From contig UBXV01000006.1 in NCBI GenBank assembly GCA_900469625.1, positions 124,001 through 188,000 of the forward strand: a DNA stretch of 64,000 nucleotides, read 5' to 3'. Positions within the stretch are counted from its first letter, which is position 1; the number at the start of each line of letters is the position of its first letter. The position numbers and the translations under genes are program-made. A model generated the notes under the pieces. It was not told the origin of the DNA, did not search any database, and worked only from the letters and a program-made list of their open reading frames with translations. This DNA is from Hyphomicrobiales bacterium. Lineage in GTDB: Bacteria > Pseudomonadota > Alphaproteobacteria > Rhizobiales > Rhizobiaceae. Below, piece after piece: positions 29,171-63,335 of the stretch.

Positions 29171-30631
29171 TCAGCTGCCGATCTGGCTGCCGACGAAGTC
29201 CTTGACGATGCGCACGATGCCGCGACCCAGGAGATCGTCGAGCGCTGCGATGAACTGGTCGACATGCGCGCGCTCGCAGATCAGCGGCGGTTCCAGCCGG
29301 ATGACGTTGCGATTGTACTCGGTGAAGGCGACAAGCACGTCGTAATCACGCAGAAGAAGCGCGCCGATGAAGCCGGAAAGCGACCCCTTCAGCTTGTCGT
29401 CGAGCACGGACACAACAGGGCGCAGCACCATCGGCAAGGTCTGGCTGAAATCCTGGAACTCCAGGCCGACCATCAGTCCCTTGCCGCGCACGTCCTTGAT
29501 GATCTTCGGATACTTCTCCTTCAACGCCTGCAGGCGCTCGAACAGATAATCGCCGCTGTCTGCGGCGCGATCGATCAGTTGCTCGTCGTAGAGCACGTTG
29601 ATGCCCTCGATCGCGGTGATGCAGGCTTCGCCCATGCCGCCGAAGGTTGCCATGGCGTGGATCATCGCCGTCTTCGAGGTGCCATAGGCCTTCATGTAGA
29701 CTTCGCGCCGGGCAATCATCGCGCCGACCGCCGCCTTGCCGGCACCGAGCGACTTGGCAAGCGCGGTTACGTCGGGCACCACACCATAGTGTTCGAAGGC
29801 GTAGAAGCGACCCGAACGGCCATAGCCGCATTGCACTTCGTCAGCGACCCACAGCACGCCGTAGCGATCGCACAATGCGCGCAGTTGCTGCCAGTACTCA
29901 GCCGGCGCCTGGATGATGCCGCCGCCGCCCTGGATCGTCTCCAGCACGATGACGCCGATCTCCGGATCGGACCTGAACGCATCCTCGACAGCCTGGATAT
30001 CGGCGAAGGGAACGCGGACCGTGTTGTCGGTGAGCTTGAAATCGGCGCGATAGAGCTGGCCGTCGGTAATGGCGAGCACGCCCTTAGTCTTGCCGTGGAA
30101 GGAGTTTTCCGCATAGACGACCTTCGGCCGCTTCGGGCCGGCGGCGCGCTCCGCTAGCTTGATCGCCGCCTCCATTGCCTCGGAACCGGACGAACCGAGG
30201 AAGACCATGTCGAGGTCTCCCGGCGAGCATGCGGCGATGTTCTTGGCGAGCGCCGCTGCATATTGCGACATGAATGCGATCGCGATTTCGTGGCGCTTCT
30301 CGTCCTGGAACTTCCGCCGCGCTTCGAGAATGCGCGGGTGATTGTGCCCGAAGGCCAGCGAGCCGAAGCCGCCGAAGAAATCGAGGATCTTGCGGCCGTT
30401 CTGATCGGTGTAGAACATGCCCTCGGCGCTTTCGATCTTCACCTTGTGAAAACCGAGCAGCTTCATGAAGTGCAACTGGCCGGGATTGAGATGATCCTTG
30501 AAGGCCGTGGTGATGTCGCCGATCGACATGGCCTTCGCCTGCTCGACGCTGATCAGGTTCGGCCTCGGAACGCCGCCGTCGAGAGACGGGGCCGGCACGG
30601 CGGTACGGTTCGGTTTATCCAGCATGGTCAT
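29171..30631 (-). CDS. Class III (GABA-type) PLP aminotransferase
   Basis: A 486-residue fold-type I aminotransferase. FGGFGSLAFGHNHPRI lies near residue 86, GSSGSEAMEAAIKLA (phosphate-binding) near 146, WVADEVQCGYGRSG with the cofactor Asp264 near 261, and the PLP Lys293 in ALAKSLGAGKAAVGA. Class III enzymes transfer amino groups to aldehydes or ketones from omega-amines or amino acids. It is the last gene of the operon, 7 bp after the SDR. ATG 30625 is an alternative start with better spacing to GGGGAAA. Substrate unknown; amination of a keto-pentose is only a hypothesis. Confidence 0.88.
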   Translation of the reverse strand: MTMLDKPNRTAVPAPSLDGGVPRPNLISVEQAKAMSIGDITTAFKDHLNPGQLHFMKLLGFHKVKIESAEGMFYTDQNGRKILDFFGGFGSLAFGHNHPRILEARRKFQDEKRHEIAIAFMSQYAAALAKNIAACSPGDLDMVFLGSSGSEAMEAAIKLAERAAGPKRPKVVYAENSFHGKTKGVLAITDGQLYRADFKLTDNTVRVPFADIQAVEDAFRSDPEIGVIVLETIQGGGGIIQAPAEYWQQLRALCDRYGVLWVADEVQCGYGRSGRFYAFEHYGVVPDVTALAKSLGAGKAAVGAMIARREVYMKAYGTSKTAMIHAMATFGGMGEACITAIEGINVLYDEQLIDRAADSGDYLFERLQALKEKYPKIIKDVRGKGLMVGLEFQDFSQTLPMVLRPVVSVLDDKLKGSLSGFIGALLLRDYDVLVAFTEYNRNVIRLEPPLICERAHVDQFIAALDDLLGRGIVRIVKDFVGSQIGS

Positions 30632-30638
30632 TTTCCCC

Positions 30639-31649
30639 TCATTCGGCCGGGATGGCGGCAGCGTCTTGAACGGCCGCGCCGCTCTTCTTGGCCCGATATT
30701 CGTTATAGGCGGCGATCAGCATGTCACCGTCGTTGAACTCCGGCCGCCAACCGAGCTCGCGTTTCAGCTTGCCCGTTTCACGAACGCACAGTTCGTCGGC
30801 GATCAGATACTGCTCCGGATCCATGATCGGCTTGTTGATCAGATCGAACAGCGCCAGCGTCTGCTTCACCGCAAAGCCCGGTGTCGGCAGCAGGATGGAT
30901 TTCGATCCGGCATGCTTTATGAGATTGCCGAGAAGCTCACGCACCGATGGCGGGCTGTCCGAGCCCAGATTATAGGCTTCGTTCGGCACGCCGCCCTTCC
31001 AGGCAAGCCGTGCGGCTTCGGCGCAATCGAACACCGAGATGAACTGGTAGGGCACCTTGCCCGAACCGATCATCGGAACCGGCAGGTTCAGGTCGATCAG
31101 CTTGAACAGTTTCTCCAGAATACCGAGACGGCCGGGGCCGATGATCAGTCGCGGACGGAAGATCGATATGTTCAGCCCCTCCTTGCGCCATTGCGCCGCG
31201 AGCTGCTCGGTCGCCCACTTCGATTTCCCGTATTCGCCGAGCGGCTTTGCCGGGTGGTCTTCCGTCTGCGGCGACTGCACCGTGTGGCCGTAGATCATGT
31301 CGGTGGTGAACTGGACGAGGCGCGAGGCGTTCGCCACCCCCATCGCCTTCATGATGTTCTCGGCACCGTAATAATTGACCGGCCAGAAGAAGTCCCACCG
31401 CTTCGAGCGGATCTGCAACGGCGACAGCATCTTGGCCGCCATGTTGTAGACCATGTCGTCCGGGCCGATCCCGACCTTCAGGACGTCGCCCATTTGCGTC
31501 ACGTCGCAATGGACGAAGCGGGCGCGGCCGTAGTGTGGCAGGTCGGACTTGACGATATCGGCGATGACGACGTCCTCGCCGTCCTGAACGAGGCGTTGCG
31601 CCAGATGCCGGCCGACGAAACCGTCGCCGCCGAAAATGATATGTCTCAT
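30639..31649 (-). CDS. Extended SDR family NAD-dependent epimerase/reductase
   Basis: A 336-residue extended short-chain dehydrogenase. The dinucleotide site is GGDGFVGRHLAQRL at residue 7, the catalytic Tyr and Lys are in EYGKSKWATEQ near 150, and FRPRLIIGPGR and VFDCAEAARLAWKG follow. Extended SDRs mostly act on nucleotide sugars. In mycobacteria the step after DprE1 uses DprE2, a classical SDR of about 250 residues, so this would be a non-orthologous stand-in. It overlaps the SMR-like gene by ATGA. Confidence 0.88.
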   Translation of the reverse strand: MRHIIFGGDGFVGRHLAQRLVQDGEDVVIADIVKSDLPHYGRARFVHCDVTQMGDVLKVGIGPDDMVYNMAAKMLSPLQIRSKRWDFFWPVNYYGAENIMKAMGVANASRLVQFTTDMIYGHTVQSPQTEDHPAKPLGEYGKSKWATEQLAAQWRKEGLNISIFRPRLIIGPGRLGILEKLFKLIDLNLPVPMIGSGKVPYQFISVFDCAEAARLAWKGGVPNEAYNLGSDSPPSVRELLGNLIKHAGSKSILLPTPGFAVKQTLALFDLINKPIMDPEQYLIADELCVRETGKLKRELGWRPEFNDGDMLIAAYNEYRAKKSGAAVQDAAAIPAE

Positions 31650-32086
31650 GACTTGCTCCCGAAATCTGCTGTTCTTGCACCAGCCGCTTCGGCCGGCTTT
31701 TCGTCGCTATGGGATGACATGCCCGACTGGGCGATCAGAACCGTTCCGACGCAAATGAGCGCGATGCCGGCGATGCGCCAGGCATTGAGGTCCTCGCGAA
31801 AGACGAAGTAGGCGAAAACCGCCACCGCCACATAAGCCAGGCTCAGGAACGGATAGGCGAAGGAAAGCTCCACCTTCGACAGCACGTACAAATGTGATGC
31901 CATGGAGATGACGAAGGTCACGAGACCGGCGAAAACCCATGGATTAAAAACGATCTGGAACAGGCGGACGATCGCCGTCTCTGCCGTCATCGAGATCGGC
32001 CCGAGCGACATCATGCCCTGCTTCAGCATCAACTGCGCCGCAGCATTGGTGGCCACGGTGAAGAGAATGAATGGAATATATTTCAT
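31646..32086 (-). CDS. SMR/EamA-like small membrane transporter (ArnE/F type)
   Basis: A 146-residue protein with four membrane helices (about 3-20, 44-66, 72-93 and 98-118), a short loop pattern AAAQLMLKQGM and a soluble 25-residue tail. This is the layout of small multidrug resistance proteins and of ArnE/ArnF, which flip undecaprenyl-phosphate aminoarabinose. In this operon a lipid-linked sugar flippase is the natural reading; in mycobacteria a GtrA-type protein was proposed for that job. It overlaps the SDR gene by ATGA. Confidence 0.8.
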   Translation of the reverse strand: MKYIPFILFTVATNAAAQLMLKQGMMSLGPISMTAETAIVRLFQIVFNPWVFAGLVTFVISMASHLYVLSKVELSFAYPFLSLAYVAVAVFAYFVFREDLNAWRIAGIALICVGTVLIAQSGMSSHSDEKPAEAAGARTADFGSKS

Positions 32087-32179
32087 AGTTTTACTCCCAG
32101 TCCCGGGAAATGAACTACACGCAAGAGACGCATATTCCGTGAAGTTCGCGCATTTAATTTAATAAAATTGTCTGCATTC

Positions 32180-33502
32180 TCATTTTGGCAAAGCCAGCGC
32201 CGTGCGGCGCCAGAAGTTCGACGTCAGCGCCGGATCGCGCAGCGCCTCAAGCGAACGCCAGGAAGGGAAAGACTTTTCAAAGACTTGTGGGCTCATGCGC
32301 GCATCCTTGTAAGGATTGATCGCGCCACCTGCCTCGATAACGATCGCATCGAGACGGTCCAGGAGCTTTACTGTCCGTTCACCTTGATTGGCGAAGTCCA
32401 GCGTCAAAGTAAAACCGGGCCTCGGGAACGACAGGATGCCGCGCGAGGCGACGTCGCCGAAGCGCTTCAGAACGGTCAGGAACGATGCATGTCCAGCGCG
32501 CCACGCCGTCTCCATCAGCGTGGCGGTGATCTCCCGCGCATTCTCGGCCGGGTAGACGCTCTGATGCTGAAAGAGCCCTTTAGGACCATACAGCCGGTTC
32601 CACGCGCCGATGGCGTCGAGCGGATAGAAATAGGAGGTCCACGGCACCGTCGCGACAGTCTCGCCCGCCTTCTGCCTGCGGTAATAATACTCGTTGAAGG
32701 CCTTGAGTGTTGCGAAATTGAGGAGATTGAATGGCGGCGAAAAAGGCACCGTGAGCTTCATGCCCTTGGGCATATCGGGAAATTCACACGAACCGTCCGC
32801 ATGGTCGCCGGCAAGCAAGATCCCGCGGCCCATGCGCCGTCCCGTGGCCAACTGGTCGATCCAGGCGACGGAATATTCGTGTTCCTCGTCGATGCGATCG
32901 ACCAGACCGAAATATTCCTCGAGATTGTCGAAGCGGATGGCGTGCTGCTGCACATGCGGCGACGGGACCTTCGTCAGGCGAAGGCTGACACTCAGGATCA
33001 GACCGGTCAGTCCCATGCCGCCGATCGTCGCGGCAAAGAGCTCAGCGTTTTCCTGCGGCGTACAGGTCAGGCGTTCGCCATTGGACCGCAAGAGCGTGAA
33101 GCCGGTGACATGATTGCCGAACGTGCCGCGGGCGTGGTGGTTCTTGCCGTGCACATCGTTGGCAAGCGCGCCACCCACGGTAACGAAGGCCGTGCCGGGC
33201 GTCACCGGCAGAAAGAAGCGGTGCGGAATGGCGCGCGCGAGAGCGTCGCTGAGCGTCACGCCCGCCTCGCAGGTCATCAATCCGGTGCCGGGATCAAAGG
33301 CGAGGATCCGTCCATGCCGACGGTTGTCGATCAGCATGCCCTGGTCGTTGTGGCAACTGTCGCCATAGCTGCGGCCGTTGCCAAACGGCAGAAAGGCTCC
33401 GGGGTCGATCGCGCCGATGCGATCTTCGTAGTCGTCGGGTGAAATGCCCTGCCTTGGCCGCTGGTCGAGACGGCCCCAGCTTTGGTAGTCTTGCATGTTC
33501 AT
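32180..33502 (-). CDS. DprE1-type decaprenylphosphoryl-ribose 2'-oxidase
   Basis: A 440-residue FAD oxidase. GRSYGDSC (43-50) and VHGKNHHARGTFGNH (117-131) match the FAD-binding hallmarks of mycobacterial DprE1 as I recall them, including the His of HGKNHH. FQHQSVYP (311-318) keeps the two Gln, and K399 in YKDAR matches the active-site Lys. The residue aligned with Cys387 of M. tuberculosis is Thr367 (TLTLDF). It should oxidize C2' of a polyprenyl-phosphoryl ribose. ATG 33502 overlaps the upstream stop as ATGA. Confidence 0.9.
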   Translation of the reverse strand: MNMQDYQSWGRLDQRPRQGISPDDYEDRIGAIDPGAFLPFGNGRSYGDSCHNDQGMLIDNRRHGRILAFDPGTGLMTCEAGVTLSDALARAIPHRFFLPVTPGTAFVTVGGALANDVHGKNHHARGTFGNHVTGFTLLRSNGERLTCTPQENAELFAATIGGMGLTGLILSVSLRLTKVPSPHVQQHAIRFDNLEEYFGLVDRIDEEHEYSVAWIDQLATGRRMGRGILLAGDHADGSCEFPDMPKGMKLTVPFSPPFNLLNFATLKAFNEYYYRRQKAGETVATVPWTSYFYPLDAIGAWNRLYGPKGLFQHQSVYPAENAREITATLMETAWRAGHASFLTVLKRFGDVASRGILSFPRPGFTLTLDFANQGERTVKLLDRLDAIVIEAGGAINPYKDARMSPQVFEKSFPSWRSLEALRDPALTSNFWRRTALALPK

Positions 33503-34941
33503 TGCGGCCCTACCGCTCCGATGAGGATAAGCAATGCCCCGACCAGCATCGTCAACTGGCTGCGCCAATCGCGCATGATGAAGACGACGGGATCTTCATG
33601 CAACATGCCACGGCGGGCCAGCATCCAGATGCGCAGCAACATGTAGAGCACCAGCGGGCAAAGCGGCCACAATGCCCAGGGGGTCGTATACATCTCCTGA
33701 AGCTCCTTGCTGTGCACGTAGAGCGCAAGCACCAGAGCCGAGGTGAAGGCGGAGGCGACGCCTGCCTGCCCGACCATTTCGAAATCGACCGCGAGATAGC
33801 CACGACCGGGAACGGCGCCACCGTCCTTGTCCTCGAATTCGTGCAATTCGACGTAGCGCTTCACCAGCGCAAGGCTCAGGAAGAAGAAGATTGCGAATGA
33901 CACCAGCCAGAAGGAAAGCTCGGTGCCCGTTGCGGCCGCACCGGCGACGATGCGTGTCGTGTAAAGGCCGGCGAGCGTGAACACATCGACCAGAAGCTTG
34001 CGCTTGAGCACAAACGTGTAGGCCGTCGTGGCGCAGGCATAAAAGGCGAGCACGCCGGCGAAATGCAACGGCAGCATGGTCGTCAGCGAGACCGAGGCGA
34101 GGATCAGGCAGATGACGAGGATCAACGCCGTCGGCACCGACATCTGACCGCTCGCGAGCGGACGGTTGCGCTTCTTGGCGTGGCGCCGGTCGTTGGCGAG
34201 ATCGGAGAGATCGTTGATGACGTAAACGGCGGAAGCAAGAAAACTGAAGGCGAAAAACGCCACGATGACGTTGACCAGCGCATCCAGATGCAGGACTTCG
34301 TGGTTGAGGATCATCGGCACGCCGATCAGCACGTTCTTGGCCCACTGGTGGACGCGGATCGACTTCAGGGCGGCCAGCGCGCTTACCTTGCCGGTATCGA
34401 GCTTCTCGGCATCGTGATTGCGGCGCCATTTTTCCGCCGCCGCATCAGGCGCCACGACGATCGCCCGGCGCGACACCTCGAATACCGCAATGTCATCACC
34501 GCTGTTGCCCATATAGTCGAACCGGCCTTTGCCGAACCGTTGAACCAGGGCGTCACGCTTGCGGTCGCTTGTGAGGTTCAGCACATCGGACGAATGCATG
34601 ACCGACGAAAAAAGCCCGACATGGGCTGCAACGTCCATCGCGACGGTGGACGCAGCGCCGGTGACGAGCACGATATCGCGGCCGCTTGCCTTTTCCGTTG
34701 CCAACCGGTCCAGCACGGTCTGACGGTACGGCCAGTCTTCGGCCCTTCGCCCGGATCGTGCTGCAACTTCCTGCTTCAGGCGCGCCTTGCCCTGAAACAG
34801 CCATATCAGCATCGGGAAGACCATCAACGGATTGCGCAAGAGGACGATTGCAGCGCCTTCCCAAAGTGTATCGGCCGCCAGCAACGTGCCATCCAGGTCG
34901 ACACACAACGGAATTTGCCGTGTTTCGATGTGCGCATTCAT
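33499..34941 (-). CDS. HAD phosphatase-UbiA fusion, DPPR synthase type
   Basis: A 480-residue two-domain protein. Residues 1-180 are a HAD domain with DLDGT (15-19) and GNSGDD (145-150). Residues 190-480 are a UbiA membrane prenyltransferase with about nine helices; NDLSDLANDRRHAKKRNRP (243-261) and KRYVELHEFE (361-370) closely follow the mycobacterial decaprenylphosphoryl-5-phosphoribose synthase (Rv3806c) pattern. The fusion would join polyprenyl phosphate to phosphoribosyl pyrophosphate and remove the 5-phosphate. First gene of the operon, with a hairpin over its ribosome site. Confidence 0.9.
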   Translation of the reverse strand: MNAHIETRQIPLCVDLDGTLLAADTLWEGAAIVLLRNPLMVFPMLIWLFQGKARLKQEVAARSGRRAEDWPYRQTVLDRLATEKASGRDIVLVTGAASTVAMDVAAHVGLFSSVMHSSDVLNLTSDRKRDALVQRFGKGRFDYMGNSGDDIAVFEVSRRAIVVAPDAAAEKWRRNHDAEKLDTGKVSALAALKSIRVHQWAKNVLIGVPMILNHEVLHLDALVNVIVAFFAFSFLASAVYVINDLSDLANDRRHAKKRNRPLASGQMSVPTALILVICLILASVSLTTMLPLHFAGVLAFYACATTAYTFVLKRKLLVDVFTLAGLYTTRIVAGAAATGTELSFWLVSFAIFFFLSLALVKRYVELHEFEDKDGGAVPGRGYLAVDFEMVGQAGVASAFTSALVLALYVHSKELQEMYTTPWALWPLCPLVLYMLLRIWMLARRGMLHEDPVVFIMRDWRSQLTMLVGALLILIGAVGPQ

Positions 34942-36208: not shown

Positions 36209-38272
36209 ATGGACGACAGCAACGACCTCTTCTCCGCAATGCCCGAACAACCGAAGCCCGTGGCTCCAGCCGCTGCGCCTGTGCAGCGCCCCGCTGCGGC
36301 TCCGCGTGAAGAACCGCGCCCGGCCCCCAAGGGCAGCGACAGTGGCGATTACGACGCGTCGGCGATCGAGGTGCTGGAGGGGCTGGAGCCTGTTCGACGT
36401 CGCCCGGGCATGTATATCGGCGGCACCGACGAAAAGGCGCTGCACCATCTCTTTGCCGAAGTCATCGACAACTCGATGGACGAAGCGGTGGCCGGGCACG
36501 CCAACTTCATCGAGGTCAATCTCGACGCCGACGGTTATCTGACGGTCACCGACAACGGCCGCGGCATTCCTGTCGAGAACCACCCGAAGTTTCCCGGCAA
36601 GTCGACGCTTGAAGTCGTCATGACGATCCTGCACGCCGGCGGCAAGTTCGACGGCAAGGCCTACGAGACCTCAGGCGGTCTGCACGGCGTCGGTGTCTCG
36701 GTTGTCAACGCTTTGTCGGATGACCTCGAGGTCGAGGTTGCCAGAAACCGCAAGCTTTACCGGCAGCGCTTTTCGCGCGGCATCCCGCAGGGCGGTCTCG
36801 AAGAACTGGGCGACGTGCACAACCGGCGTGGAACCCGCGTCCGCTTTCATCCCGATCCGCAGATCTTCGGTCCGCACGCCCGCTTCGAGCCGGCGCGGTT
36901 GTTCCGGATGGCCCGCTCGAAGGCCTATCTGTTCGGCGGCGTCGAAATCCGCTGGTCCTGCGATCCGTCGCTGCTGCAGGAAGGCTCCGAGATCCCCGAT
37001 CGCGCAGTGTTCCACTTCCCCGGCGGCCTGAAGGATTACCTGGCGGCAACCCTCGGCAAGGAATTTACGGTCACCCGCGAGATCTTTGCCGGCAAGTCGG
37101 AGAAGTCGAATGGCCACGGCTCGCTCGAATGGGCGGTCACCTGGTACGGGGGCGACCAACAGGTCCACTCCTATTGCAATACCATTCCGACACCCGAAGG
37201 CGGGACGCATGAAGCTGGCTTCCGCATCGCCCTCACCAAGGGGCTGAAGAATTATGCGGAGCTGACGCAGAACAAGCGCGCTGCCATCATCACCACCGAT
37301 GACGTGATGATTTCGGCCGCGGGCATGCTTTCCGTCTTTATCCGCGAACCGGAATTCGTCGGCCAGACGAAGGACAAGCTGGCGACGGTCGAGGCCCAGC
37401 GCATCGTTGAAAACGCCCTGCGCGACCCCTTCGACCACTATCTCGCCGACAACCCGGCCGAGGCTGCAAAGCTGCTCGAATGGGTGATCGAGCGCGCCGA
37501 CGAGCGCGTCCGCCGCCGCAAGGAAAAGGAAGTCAACCGCAAGACCGCCGTTCGCAAGCTGCGCCTGCCCGGCAAGCTTGCCGATTGCTCCCAGAACACC
37601 GCAGAAGGTGCCGAACTTTTCATCGTCGAAGGGGATTCGGCCGGCGGCTCTGCCAAGCAGGCACGCAACCGCGCCAACCAGGCGATCCTGCCATTGCGCG
37701 GCAAGATCCTCAACGTCGCCAGCGCAGGACGCGAAAAGCTCGGCGCGAACCAGCAGATCACCGACCTCATCCAGGCGCTTGGCTGCGGCACGCGCAGCAA
37801 GTACCGGGAAGAGGACCTGCGCTATGAGCGCATCGTCGTCATGACCGACGCCGACGTCGATGGCGCGCATATCGCCTCGCTGCTGATCACCTTCTTTTAC
37901 CAGGAGATGCCGGAGCTCATCCGCGGCGGCCATCTCTACCTCGCCGTTCCACCGCTCTATCGCCTGAGCCAGGGCTCAAAGACGCTTTATGCCCGCGATG
38001 ACGCGCATCGAGAGGAATTGATGCGCACCGAGTTCAACGGTCGCGGCAAGGTGGAAGTCGGTCGGTTCAAGGGTCTCGGCGAGATGCTGCCGGCGCAGCT
38101 CAAGGAAACGACGATGGATCCGAAGTTCCGCACGCTGCTGAAGGTCGAGATCGACGACGTCGATTTCGAGGGCACCCGCGAAGCCGTCGACAGCCTGATG
38201 GGCACCAAGGCGGATGCGCGCTTCCGCTTCATTCAGGAGCGCGCCGTGTTTGCCGACAACCTCGACATCTGA
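36209..38272 (+). CDS. parE: DNA topoisomerase IV subunit B
   Basis: A 687-residue GHKL ATPase subunit that decatenates daughter chromosomes with ParC. After a Pro/Ala-rich N-terminal 45 residues come VRRRPGMYIGGTD, the ATP-site Asn in EVIDNSMDEAVAGH, DNGRGIPV, and GGLHGVGVSVVNAL. The TOPRIM domain has VEGDSAGGSA near 475 and MTDADVDGAH near 550. Its length, lack of a GyrB-type insert and the QALGCG segment point to ParE and not GyrB. A terminator follows at 38286. Confidence 0.94.
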   Translation: MDDSNDLFSAMPEQPKPVAPAAAPVQRPAAAPREEPRPAPKGSDSGDYDASAIEVLEGLEPVRRRPGMYIGGTDEKALHHLFAEVIDNSMDEAVAGHANFIEVNLDADGYLTVTDNGRGIPVENHPKFPGKSTLEVVMTILHAGGKFDGKAYETSGGLHGVGVSVVNALSDDLEVEVARNRKLYRQRFSRGIPQGGLEELGDVHNRRGTRVRFHPDPQIFGPHARFEPARLFRMARSKAYLFGGVEIRWSCDPSLLQEGSEIPDRAVFHFPGGLKDYLAATLGKEFTVTREIFAGKSEKSNGHGSLEWAVTWYGGDQQVHSYCNTIPTPEGGTHEAGFRIALTKGLKNYAELTQNKRAAIITTDDVMISAAGMLSVFIREPEFVGQTKDKLATVEAQRIVENALRDPFDHYLADNPAEAAKLLEWVIERADERVRRRKEKEVNRKTAVRKLRLPGKLADCSQNTAEGAELFIVEGDSAGGSAKQARNRANQAILPLRGKILNVASAGREKLGANQQITDLIQALGCGTRSKYREEDLRYERIVVMTDADVDGAHIASLLITFFYQEMPELIRGGHLYLAVPPLYRLSQGSKTLYARDDAHREELMRTEFNGRGKVEVGRFKGLGEMLPAQLKETTMDPKFRTLLKVEIDDVDFEGTREAVDSLMGTKADARFRFIQERAVFADNLDI

Positions 38273-62315: not shown

Positions 62316-63335
62316 ATGGCGAACACCATGTCCGATACCAACATGACCTCGACCGCTGAACCGCAGCCCACGACAGGCACCCGTCGCCGGCTCGTCTTCA
62401 TCGATGTGCTGCGCGGCCTGGCACTCGTCGCCATGGCACTTTACCATTTCGTCTGGGATCTGGAGTTCTTCGGCTACGTTGCAGCCGGAACCGCCGGCAC
62501 CGGTGGGTGGAAGATGTTTGCCCGGCTGATCGCCAGCAGCTTCCTGTTTCTCGCAGGCTACAGCCTCGTGCTCGGACAACGCCCGAAGATCCGTTTTGAC
62601 GCCTTCCTGCGTCGCTTCGCCAAGATCGCCGGCGCGGCCGCATTGATCAGTGTCGCCACCTGGTTCGCCTTCCCGAAGACGTTCATCTTCTTCGGGATCC
62701 TGCATTCGATTGCAGCGGCCAGCCTCGTTGGCCTTCTGTTCCTGCCGCTTCCGACGATCGTTTCGTTCATCGCCGCCGCCGCCGCCTTTGCCGCTCCGCT
62801 TTATCTGCGCTCAACCGTTTTCGATATGCCTGCTCTATGGTGGGTCGGCCTTTCCGAAACGATCCCGCGATCGAACGACTATGTGCCCCTGCTGCCCTGG
62901 CTCGCGCCCTTCCTGCTTGGTCTCGGCACCGCGAAACTGGTGCACGACCGGCTTGTCGCGGCCCTTGCGCGGCGTCCGGATGGAGATGGAAAGACACGCC
63001 TGTGGACGAAGGCGCTCGTCTTCGGCGGCCGTCACAGTCTGGCCATATACCTCCTCCACCAGCCGCTGCTCATCGGACTGGTCTATCTCTTCTCGCTGAT
63101 CTCACCGCCGACACTGCCGGATCCAAAGCAAGCCTACAGGACCAACTGCGTGGAGGCCTGCAGCCGTGGCAATCCCGCCGTGCCGTGCGACGCCTTCTGC
63201 GGCTGCACGCTCGACCGTCTGGTGCAACAGAACCTGTTCGACGATCTGAACAGCGGAAAGATCAACGTGAACACGGATGAACGCATTGCGCGAATCGCCG
63301 GCCAATGCACAATGGACGTGCAACCAGGGGACTAG
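62316..63335 (+). CDS. DUF1624/HGSNAT-like membrane protein with Cys-rich tail
   Basis: A 339-residue membrane protein of the DUF1624 (heparan-alpha-glucosaminide N-acetyltransferase-like, acyltransferase_3-like) family. The start RLVFIDVLRGLALVAMALYH and FGILHSIAAASLVGLLFLP are typical, as is SLAIYLLHQPLLIGLVYL near residue 245. After the last helix comes a 75-residue soluble tail with seven Cys (CVEACSR, CDAFCGCTLD, QC), not part of the common core. The gene is 3 bases ahead of the methyltransferase-like gene. Substrate unknown. Confidence 0.85.
   Translation: MANTMSDTNMTSTAEPQPTTGTRRRLVFIDVLRGLALVAMALYHFVWDLEFFGYVAAGTAGTGGWKMFARLIASSFLFLAGYSLVLGQRPKIRFDAFLRRFAKIAGAAALISVATWFAFPKTFIFFGILHSIAAASLVGLLFLPLPTIVSFIAAAAAFAAPLYLRSTVFDMPALWWVGLSETIPRSNDYVPLLPWLAPFLLGLGTAKLVHDRLVAALARRPDGDGKTRLWTKALVFGGRHSLAIYLLHQPLLIGLVYLFSLISPPTLPDPKQAYRTNCVEACSRGNPAVPCDAFCGCTLDRLVQQNLFDDLNSGKINVNTDERIARIAGQCTMDVQPGD

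Follow-up and report, generated by a model that had tools for sequence, protein, structure and literature searches.

A five-gene rhizobial operon that may make a lipid-linked aminopentose, with an aminotransferase in place of DprE2

What might be made by a bacterium outside the actinobacteria that carries relatives of two mycobacterial decaprenylphosphoryl-arabinose enzymes next to an aminotransferase? The question is raised by a block of five genes (positions 29171-34941) in a 64,000-nucleotide stretch of DNA from a member of the Rhizobiaceae; this whole stretch, referred to here as the window, sits on contig C52 of a 6.5 Mb genome (G000). An earlier note, made from the letters of the DNA, had read the block as an operon for a lipid-linked pentose. 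On the genomic evidence, the balance tips slightly towards the operon making a lipid-linked aminopentose, with a class III aminotransferase in place of DprE2.

The five genes and the two conserved enzymes

The predicted genes, in the direction of transcription, are as follows.

33499-34941, minus strand: HAD-UbiA fusion (UbiA-HAD), 480 amino acids
32180-33502, minus strand: DprE1-like oxidase, 440 amino acids counted from its ATG
31646-32086, minus strand: SMR/EamA small membrane protein, 146 amino acids
30639-31649, minus strand: extended SDR, 336 amino acids
29171-30631, minus strand: class III aminotransferase, 486 amino acids

Re-reading of the open reading frames reproduces the operon as first described, in gene order, coordinates and intergenic gaps (-4, 93, -4 and 7 bp). 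The open frame of the DprE1-like gene extends upstream of its ATG to 33568, and a scan for promoters and terminators gave no signal above shuffled controls.

The assignment of the first gene looks secure: its product is predicted to be a polyprenyl-phosphate phosphoribosyltransferase (the C-terminal UbiA domain; PF01040, 5.3e-26) joined to a phosphoribose phosphatase (the N-terminal HAD domain). Against the NCBIfam HAD-UbiA fusion model PRK08238 the protein reaches 575 bits (curated cut-off 351), and although the HAD domain scores 24.6, under the Pfam cut-off of 27, its DxDGT motif is present (DLDGT, D15); the fused phosphatase proposed in the earlier note is supported. The top Protein Data Bank (PDB) match of the UbiA half is a decaprenyl-phosphate phosphoribosyltransferase (8j8j, E 8.6e-26). 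Residues D15 (HAD), N243, D244, D247, D251, R362 and E365 have the same spacing as the residues tested by mutation in Citrobacter ORF15, a HAD-UbiA fusion that makes farnesyl-P-ribose from phosphoribosyl pyrophosphate (PRPP) (PMC11127046). N243, D244, D247, D251 and R362 are invariant in 35 of 35 aligned rows (34 loci and the window), and D15 and E365 are kept in 34, the remaining row being gapped.

The second product also looks secure as a DprE1-like flavin adenine dinucleotide (FAD) oxidase, with C2 of polyprenyl-P-ribose as its expected substrate position. Its best match to the PDB DprE1 chains has E 1.1e-68, which together with 8j8j upholds the claimed likeness of both enzymes to those of mycobacteria; against the DprE1 model NF053785 it scores 343 bits, under the cut-off of 500. 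It has the motifs GRSYGD, HGKNHH and KDAR, and H118, H122 and K399 (which we take to be the catalytic lysine) are conserved in all 35 rows. Residue 367 corresponds, as we take it, to the cysteine that reacts with inhibitors in mycobacterial DprE1. Of the 35 DprE1 rows from aminotransferase loci, 33 have Thr here, and all 14 DprE2 loci have Ala; the rows that depart from this, L138 and L142, are the separate lineages.

An aminotransferase beside UbiA and DprE1

The last gene of the operon appears to encode a class III aminotransferase that stands in for DprE2. The protein matches Aminotran_3 (PF00202, 6.3e-85), its Lys293 is conserved in 41 of 41 rows, and its best NCBIfam model is PigE, with a score under that model's cut-off. 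It belongs to one tight family, with identities of 67-75% even for matches outside the taxonomic family of the window. A nearly invariant insert, LDDKLKGSLSG (residues 410-420), might contact membrane or lipid; the conserved insert region (residues ~395-430) coincides with the end of the alignments to the best-scoring solved relatives. An HpnO-like role in hopanoid metabolism was considered for this protein and dropped, with no test behind it.

The aminotransferase and DprE2 are distributed differently among loci. Fifty loci with both UbiA and DprE1 were counted: the aminotransferase is present at 34 of them and DprE2 at 14, never the two at one locus, and two loci lack both. These loci were drawn from 72 whole-genome loci (L052-L091 and L138-L169), of which 22 were left out: six with the aminotransferase whose stretch lacks UbiA or DprE1 (L085, L090, L091, L157, L159 and L162) and 16 with neither the UbiA-DprE1 pair nor the aminotransferase. 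A further set of named loci (L092-L128), fetched through the GT-C-like gene described below and coming partly from the same genomes again, was excluded from the count, in which some genomes are represented twice (e.g. G012 and G416). The genomes of the two loci with neither enzyme (L148 in G396 and L150 in G361) both carry the aminotransferase elsewhere. In a search of 30 genomes, DprE2 lies less than about 3 kb away in 14 of 14 aminotransferase-negative genomes with DprE1 beside UbiA, which had been chosen for that adjacency, and was found in none of the 12 aminotransferase-positive genomes and none of four further negatives.

At E 1e-40, DprE2 is present in three of 151 genomes of the window's family (G362, G012 and G416), and the window's own genome gave no match among the 16 of 65 first-look candidates that were scored. 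G362 has no aminotransferase; in G012 and G416 the gene is within a second UbiA-DprE1-DprE2 locus (L151 and L152, respectively). The L151 set, in a genome of the window's genus that also has the aminotransferase block, is arranged UbiA-GtrA-DprE1-DprE2 and looks like the classical arabinose kind.

On a DprE1 tree of 48 hand-picked rows (the short loci L046 and L048 being labelled DprE2 from the 30-genome search), the partner labels require at least three changes, and the aminotransferase appears in the window's large clade, in G608, paired with a DprE2-type row as its sister (support 100/98), and in G235 within a far clade. The UbiA tree, in which L138 covers 36% of the columns, also requires three partner changes; such counts give no direction on either tree. 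The stand-alone DprE1 copies of G402 and G357 (L163 and L164) cluster with DprE2-type rows, and the aminotransferase therefore accompanies several DprE1 lineages. Overall, the aminotransferase seems to take the place of DprE2 beside UbiA and DprE1.

Linkage and distribution of the block

The survey of the 151 family genomes counted the aminotransferase at E 1e-130 and UbiA at E 1e-30. The aminotransferase is present in 80 genomes and UbiA in 85, including all 80 that have the aminotransferase, and in 75 of these 80 UbiA lies less than 10 kb from it, on its 5' side and on the same strand. Twenty genomes were searched for DprE1 and for the SDR: DprE1 is in 15 of 15 aminotransferase-positive and two of five negative genomes, and an SDR homologue (E 1e-40) in 12 of the 15 and none of the five. 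A DprE1 66% identical to that of the window occurs in G360 (L160) with no UbiA or aminotransferase within 19 kb; the UbiA of this genome is on another contig, and no aminotransferase match was found in it.

Within the window's genus UbiA is present in 16 of 16 genomes and is followed in all 15 others by DprE1 and the start of SMR; the whole run of five genes was read, in order, for the window and for two of the 15 (L052 and L053). The five genes also lie in order on a 1.17-Mb plasmid of Neorhizobium sp. SOG26. A search for the block in other rhizobia, as the earlier note had proposed, finds it there, including at many of the named loci considered in the next section. Further afield, the aminotransferase occurs in 10 of 199 genomes in an order-level survey (E 1e-100), two of these being of the window's family, its own genome included, and in two of 289 in a class-level survey (E 1e-85), the window's own and G235 of another bacterial order. 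In G235 (L138) the gene order is SMR-SDR-UbiA-DprE1-aminotransferase, with UbiA not fused; at L144, aminotransferase-SDR-SMR is divergent from UbiA-DprE1; L146 has the order UbiA-(other)-SMR-SDR-aminotransferase-DprE1, and further arrangements exist. The gene set holds together through these reshuffled orders, which suggests that its members are likely to form a functional unit.

The two accessory proteins are candidates for flipping and epimerisation. The small membrane protein is an ArnE/F-like SMR protein (EamA PF00892, 1.8e-7) and a candidate flippase, as first proposed, with scores under the curated Arn cut-offs (ArnF, 54.4 bits against 99; ArnE, 35.6 against 92). Its gene is missing from one of the 34 aminotransferase loci and from all 14 DprE2 loci, and GtrA is encoded at none of the former and six of the latter; BLAST gave no alignment between the window's SMR protein and the GtrA protein of one alphaproteobacterial DprE2 locus. 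Rv3789, of the mycobacterial pathway, is presumably GtrA-like. The other protein is a GalE-like extended SDR (Epimerase PF01370, 5e-31) that could act as an accessory epimerase on the lipid-linked pentose; its GGxGxxG glycines, TTDM, and the Y and K of YxxxK are invariant in 38 rows. Because the GalE-like SDR beside the fusion enzyme in Citrobacter O2 leads to xylose in place of ribose, i.e. is an epimerase (PMC11127046), this role is the simplest guess for the window's SDR as well.

A GT-C-like gene in relatives

The earlier note had found no glycosyltransferase. None was seen among the scanned window proteins, a Pfam search of 17 of them (nine plus eight from further open reading frames, those mostly membrane proteins) giving no GT-C family, but many relatives carry a gene for a membrane protein of ~400 amino acids directly after the aminotransferase. 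Among the 151 family genomes this GT-C-like gene occurs in 35, each of which also has the aminotransferase; in 30 of the 35 it lies no more than 2.5 kb downstream of the aminotransferase. A scan for it yielded 37 named loci, in Mesorhizobium, Aminobacter, Nitratireductor, Chelativorans, Aquibium, Aurantimonas and others, and all six genes are present at 34 of these, the exceptions being L111 (which a contig end cuts), L117 and L123. The model of the protein is confident (pLDDT 93), and its top nine Foldseek matches are GT-C enzymes or complexes holding one (ALG9, PglB, oligosaccharyltransferase, ALG3, ArnT); AftB, EmbA/B and AftD rank lower, interspersed with unrelated proteins. One expects of a GT-C fold that the loop following helix 1 has an acidic residue, and at least 90% of 34 rows share Asp60.

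Seven membrane proteins at other aminotransferase loci include four that match PMT_2, two of them above the Pfam cut-off (L144 and L142). Profile comparison found no relation between the GT-C-like family and the PMT_2-type protein beside L144, so that either the two are different GT-C sequences or the former is not GT-C. An alignment of four such membrane-protein neighbours (A4) was too divergent for use. At L117, in Tianweitania, the GT-C-like homologue lies inside a polysaccharide locus with glycosyltransferases and Wzy-type and MurJ/MatE-type genes. A gene for an FkbM-type methyltransferase, which perhaps methylates the sugar, follows the GT-C-like gene at 11 of the 37 named loci (L092, L093, L095, L096, L099, L100, L101, L111, L120, L124 and L125).

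A proposed pathway and its alternatives

The products of the block can be arranged in a route. The HAD-UbiA fusion, as phosphoribosyltransferase and phosphatase, would supply polyprenyl-P-ribose, C2 of which, by homology, would be oxidised to a ketone by the DprE1-like enzyme. The aminotransferase would then transaminate this ketone, where DprE2 would have reduced it to arabinose, and so give a polyprenyl-P-2-amino-2-deoxy-pentofuranose. In most species, though not all, the stereochemistry may be set by the SDR in the role of an accessory epimerase, acting perhaps on C3; the ArnE/F-like SMR protein would flip the amino sugar lipid, and the sugar would be moved to a surface glycan by a GT-C enzyme of the periplasm, whose gene many relatives carry next to the block. 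The chances are about even that this describes an undescribed route of rhizobia and their relatives, in which a PRPP-derived, polyprenyl-phosphate-linked 2-amino-2-deoxy-pentofuranose is formed by transamination of the 2-keto intermediate of DprE1, flipped by an ArnE/F-like protein and attached to a glycan of the cell surface by GT-C-like enzymes of a new family. The lipid carrier may well not be decaprenyl phosphate, which typical Gram-negatives do not produce (PMC11127046), but undecaprenyl phosphate.

The ketone could have another fate. If the SDR were the substitute for DprE2, it would reduce the 2-keto lipid to polyprenyl-P-arabinofuranose, and the aminotransferase would act elsewhere, for example on the acceptor glycan or another lipid. 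Extended SDRs do include reductases, no DprE2 is found alongside the aminotransferase, and the SDR gene is kept at 31 of the 34 aminotransferase loci, where it could serve in this way. Three genomes (G334, G608 and G629), however, keep UbiA, DprE1 and the aminotransferase, and searches of them gave neither an SDR homologue (E 1e-40) nor DprE2 (E 1e-30); in G334 (L158) the SMR gene stands alone between DprE1 and the aminotransferase, and G435, of the same genus, does have the SDR. The ketone is therefore unlikely to be handled by the SDR alone, though some other reductase could still act in these genomes. Distant SDR-SMR pairs (SDR 27-28%) also lie ~6 kb or less from UbiA with no DprE1 match in the stretch (L071, whose stretch is only 5.3 kb long, L173 and L174), and the pair is therefore not bound to the ketone of DprE1; moreover, the UbiA-linked SDR of Citrobacter is the epimerase mentioned above. 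We consider reduction by the SDR unlikely. Amination at a different carbon, at C3 once the SDR has oxidised it or at a C5 aldehyde, to give a 3-amino or 5-amino pentose lipid, has still less to recommend it: class III aminotransferases act mostly on terminal aldehydes, GalE-like SDRs form transient ketones, and UbiA linkage and the locus counts tie the aminotransferase to the pathway, but it survives loss of the SDR, and the enzyme that is missing is DprE2, the very user of the DprE1 ketone. The resemblance of UbiA and DprE1 to the mycobacterial enzymes would also fit plain lipid-linked arabinose with the aminotransferase merely a chance neighbour. This is very improbable, given the presence of UbiA in every aminotransferase-positive family genome, a linkage that outlasts rearrangement and is seen also in another bacterial order, and the mutual exclusion of aminotransferase and DprE2 by locus. 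Of the arabinose-like product first envisaged, the pentose lipid is supported, but the missing DprE2 and the aminotransferase found instead point to an aminopentose.

Several observations weigh against transamination of the DprE1 ketone and the route built on it. Besides the preference for terminal aldehydes and the reductase role open to the SDR, no match listed for the aminotransferase (60 of its 167 solved relatives) carries the name of a sugar enzyme, and the AlphaFold model of the protein is poor (mean pLDDT 57). The counted loci were hand-picked from matches in related genomes, so that the counts are not independent and their proportions mean little. The two enzymes can coexist in one genome, as in G012 and G416, and G409 is aminotransferase-positive yet also has a UbiA-DprE1-DprE2-like locus (L149). 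UbiA is not close to the aminotransferase in five family genomes (2.3 Mb away in G361; on another contig in G453, G409, G403 and G396), and DprE1 lies elsewhere, outside the block, in G352, G357, G402 and G416. The GT-C-like protein has no Pfam or NCBIfam match, no Foldseek match of its model reaches E 0.001, and among the 12 of 16 candidates scored in the window's genome none matches it. Finally, we infer the amination and its carbon position from genomics.

Relation to known systems

A lipid-linked pentose outside the actinobacteria, as the block was first described, is supported by homology but is not new in kind: three-component pentofuranose systems are described as widespread, and Citrobacter youngae O1/O2 provides a precedent, with the HAD-UbiA fusion ORF15, the MATE flippase ORF14, the GT136 enzyme ORF12 and, in O2, the SDR epimerase ORF13 (PMC11127046). 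Compared by residue pattern as published, the two systems share a fusion whose catalytic residues are arranged alike, along with a GalE-like SDR and a flippase candidate, and relatives of the window add a GT-C-like gene; they differ in that the flippase candidate here is an ArnE/F-like SMR protein and there a MATE protein, and that here DprE1 occurs without DprE2 and with a class III aminotransferase. The word 'aminotransferase' is absent from the main text of PMC11127046. With the mycobacterial decaprenylphosphoryl-arabinose pathway (Rv3806c, Rv3807c, DprE1, DprE2, Rv3789 and the Emb/Aft transferases; PMC11127046) the block shares the UbiA and DprE1 steps, whereas the phosphatase here is a fused HAD domain, DprE2 is missing and an aminotransferase is added.

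Nod-factor arabinosylation depends on noeCHOP in Azorhizobium and noeCNHOP in Rhizobium IRBG74 (PMC2443382, PMC5080398). Steps toward a lipid-linked pentose in a rhizobium are common to both systems, set apart by their description: the noe genes serve Nod factors, and here there is a run of core genes without DprE2. Near nod genes there is perhaps another lipid-linked pentose variant. Two symbiosis plasmids, of Rhizobium sp. CCGE531 (L173) and Sinorhizobium fredii NGR234 (pNGR234a, near nodSU; L174), carry a UbiA-family gene, a second SDR and a large unknown protein, and this group lies opposite the SDR-SMR pair and a GMC oxidoreductase; pMLa of M. japonicum (L171) has the UbiA gene with an SDR across the start of the record from it.

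The Arn pathway places 4-amino-4-deoxy-L-arabinose on lipid A, and shares its logic with the proposed route: a lipid-linked amino sugar, an ArnE/F-like flippase and a GT-C transferase; the sugar source here would be PRPP, not UDP-glucuronate, and the aminotransferase is class III, not ArnB-type. A search of the open-access literature, by title and start of abstract, found nothing relevant on an aminotransferase with DprE1, UbiA or decaprenyl-phosphate, nor on aminopentoses. The class of pathway is already known, and the apparent replacement of DprE2 by an aminotransferase, with a different flippase candidate, is to our knowledge new. If the proposal is right, a mycobacterial drug-target pathway has a branch in which an aminotransferase captures the ketone intermediate, a single lipid-linked keto-pentose can lead either to arabinose or to an amino sugar, and a genome rule, aminotransferase instead of DprE2, predicts a surface sugar. 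Positively charged surface sugars can alter the encounters of bacteria with host plants, antimicrobial peptides and phages.

Neighbouring genes

The genes flanking the block are unremarkable: ParE (36209-38272) at one end, and cytochrome b561 and YceI at the other. Elsewhere in the window, at 62316-63335 on the plus strand, lies a gene for a membrane protein with a heparan-alpha-glucosaminide N-acetyltransferase catalytic domain (PF07786, 3.3e-74). Enzymes of this type acetylate amino sugars across the membrane; the gene is 27 kb from the operon.

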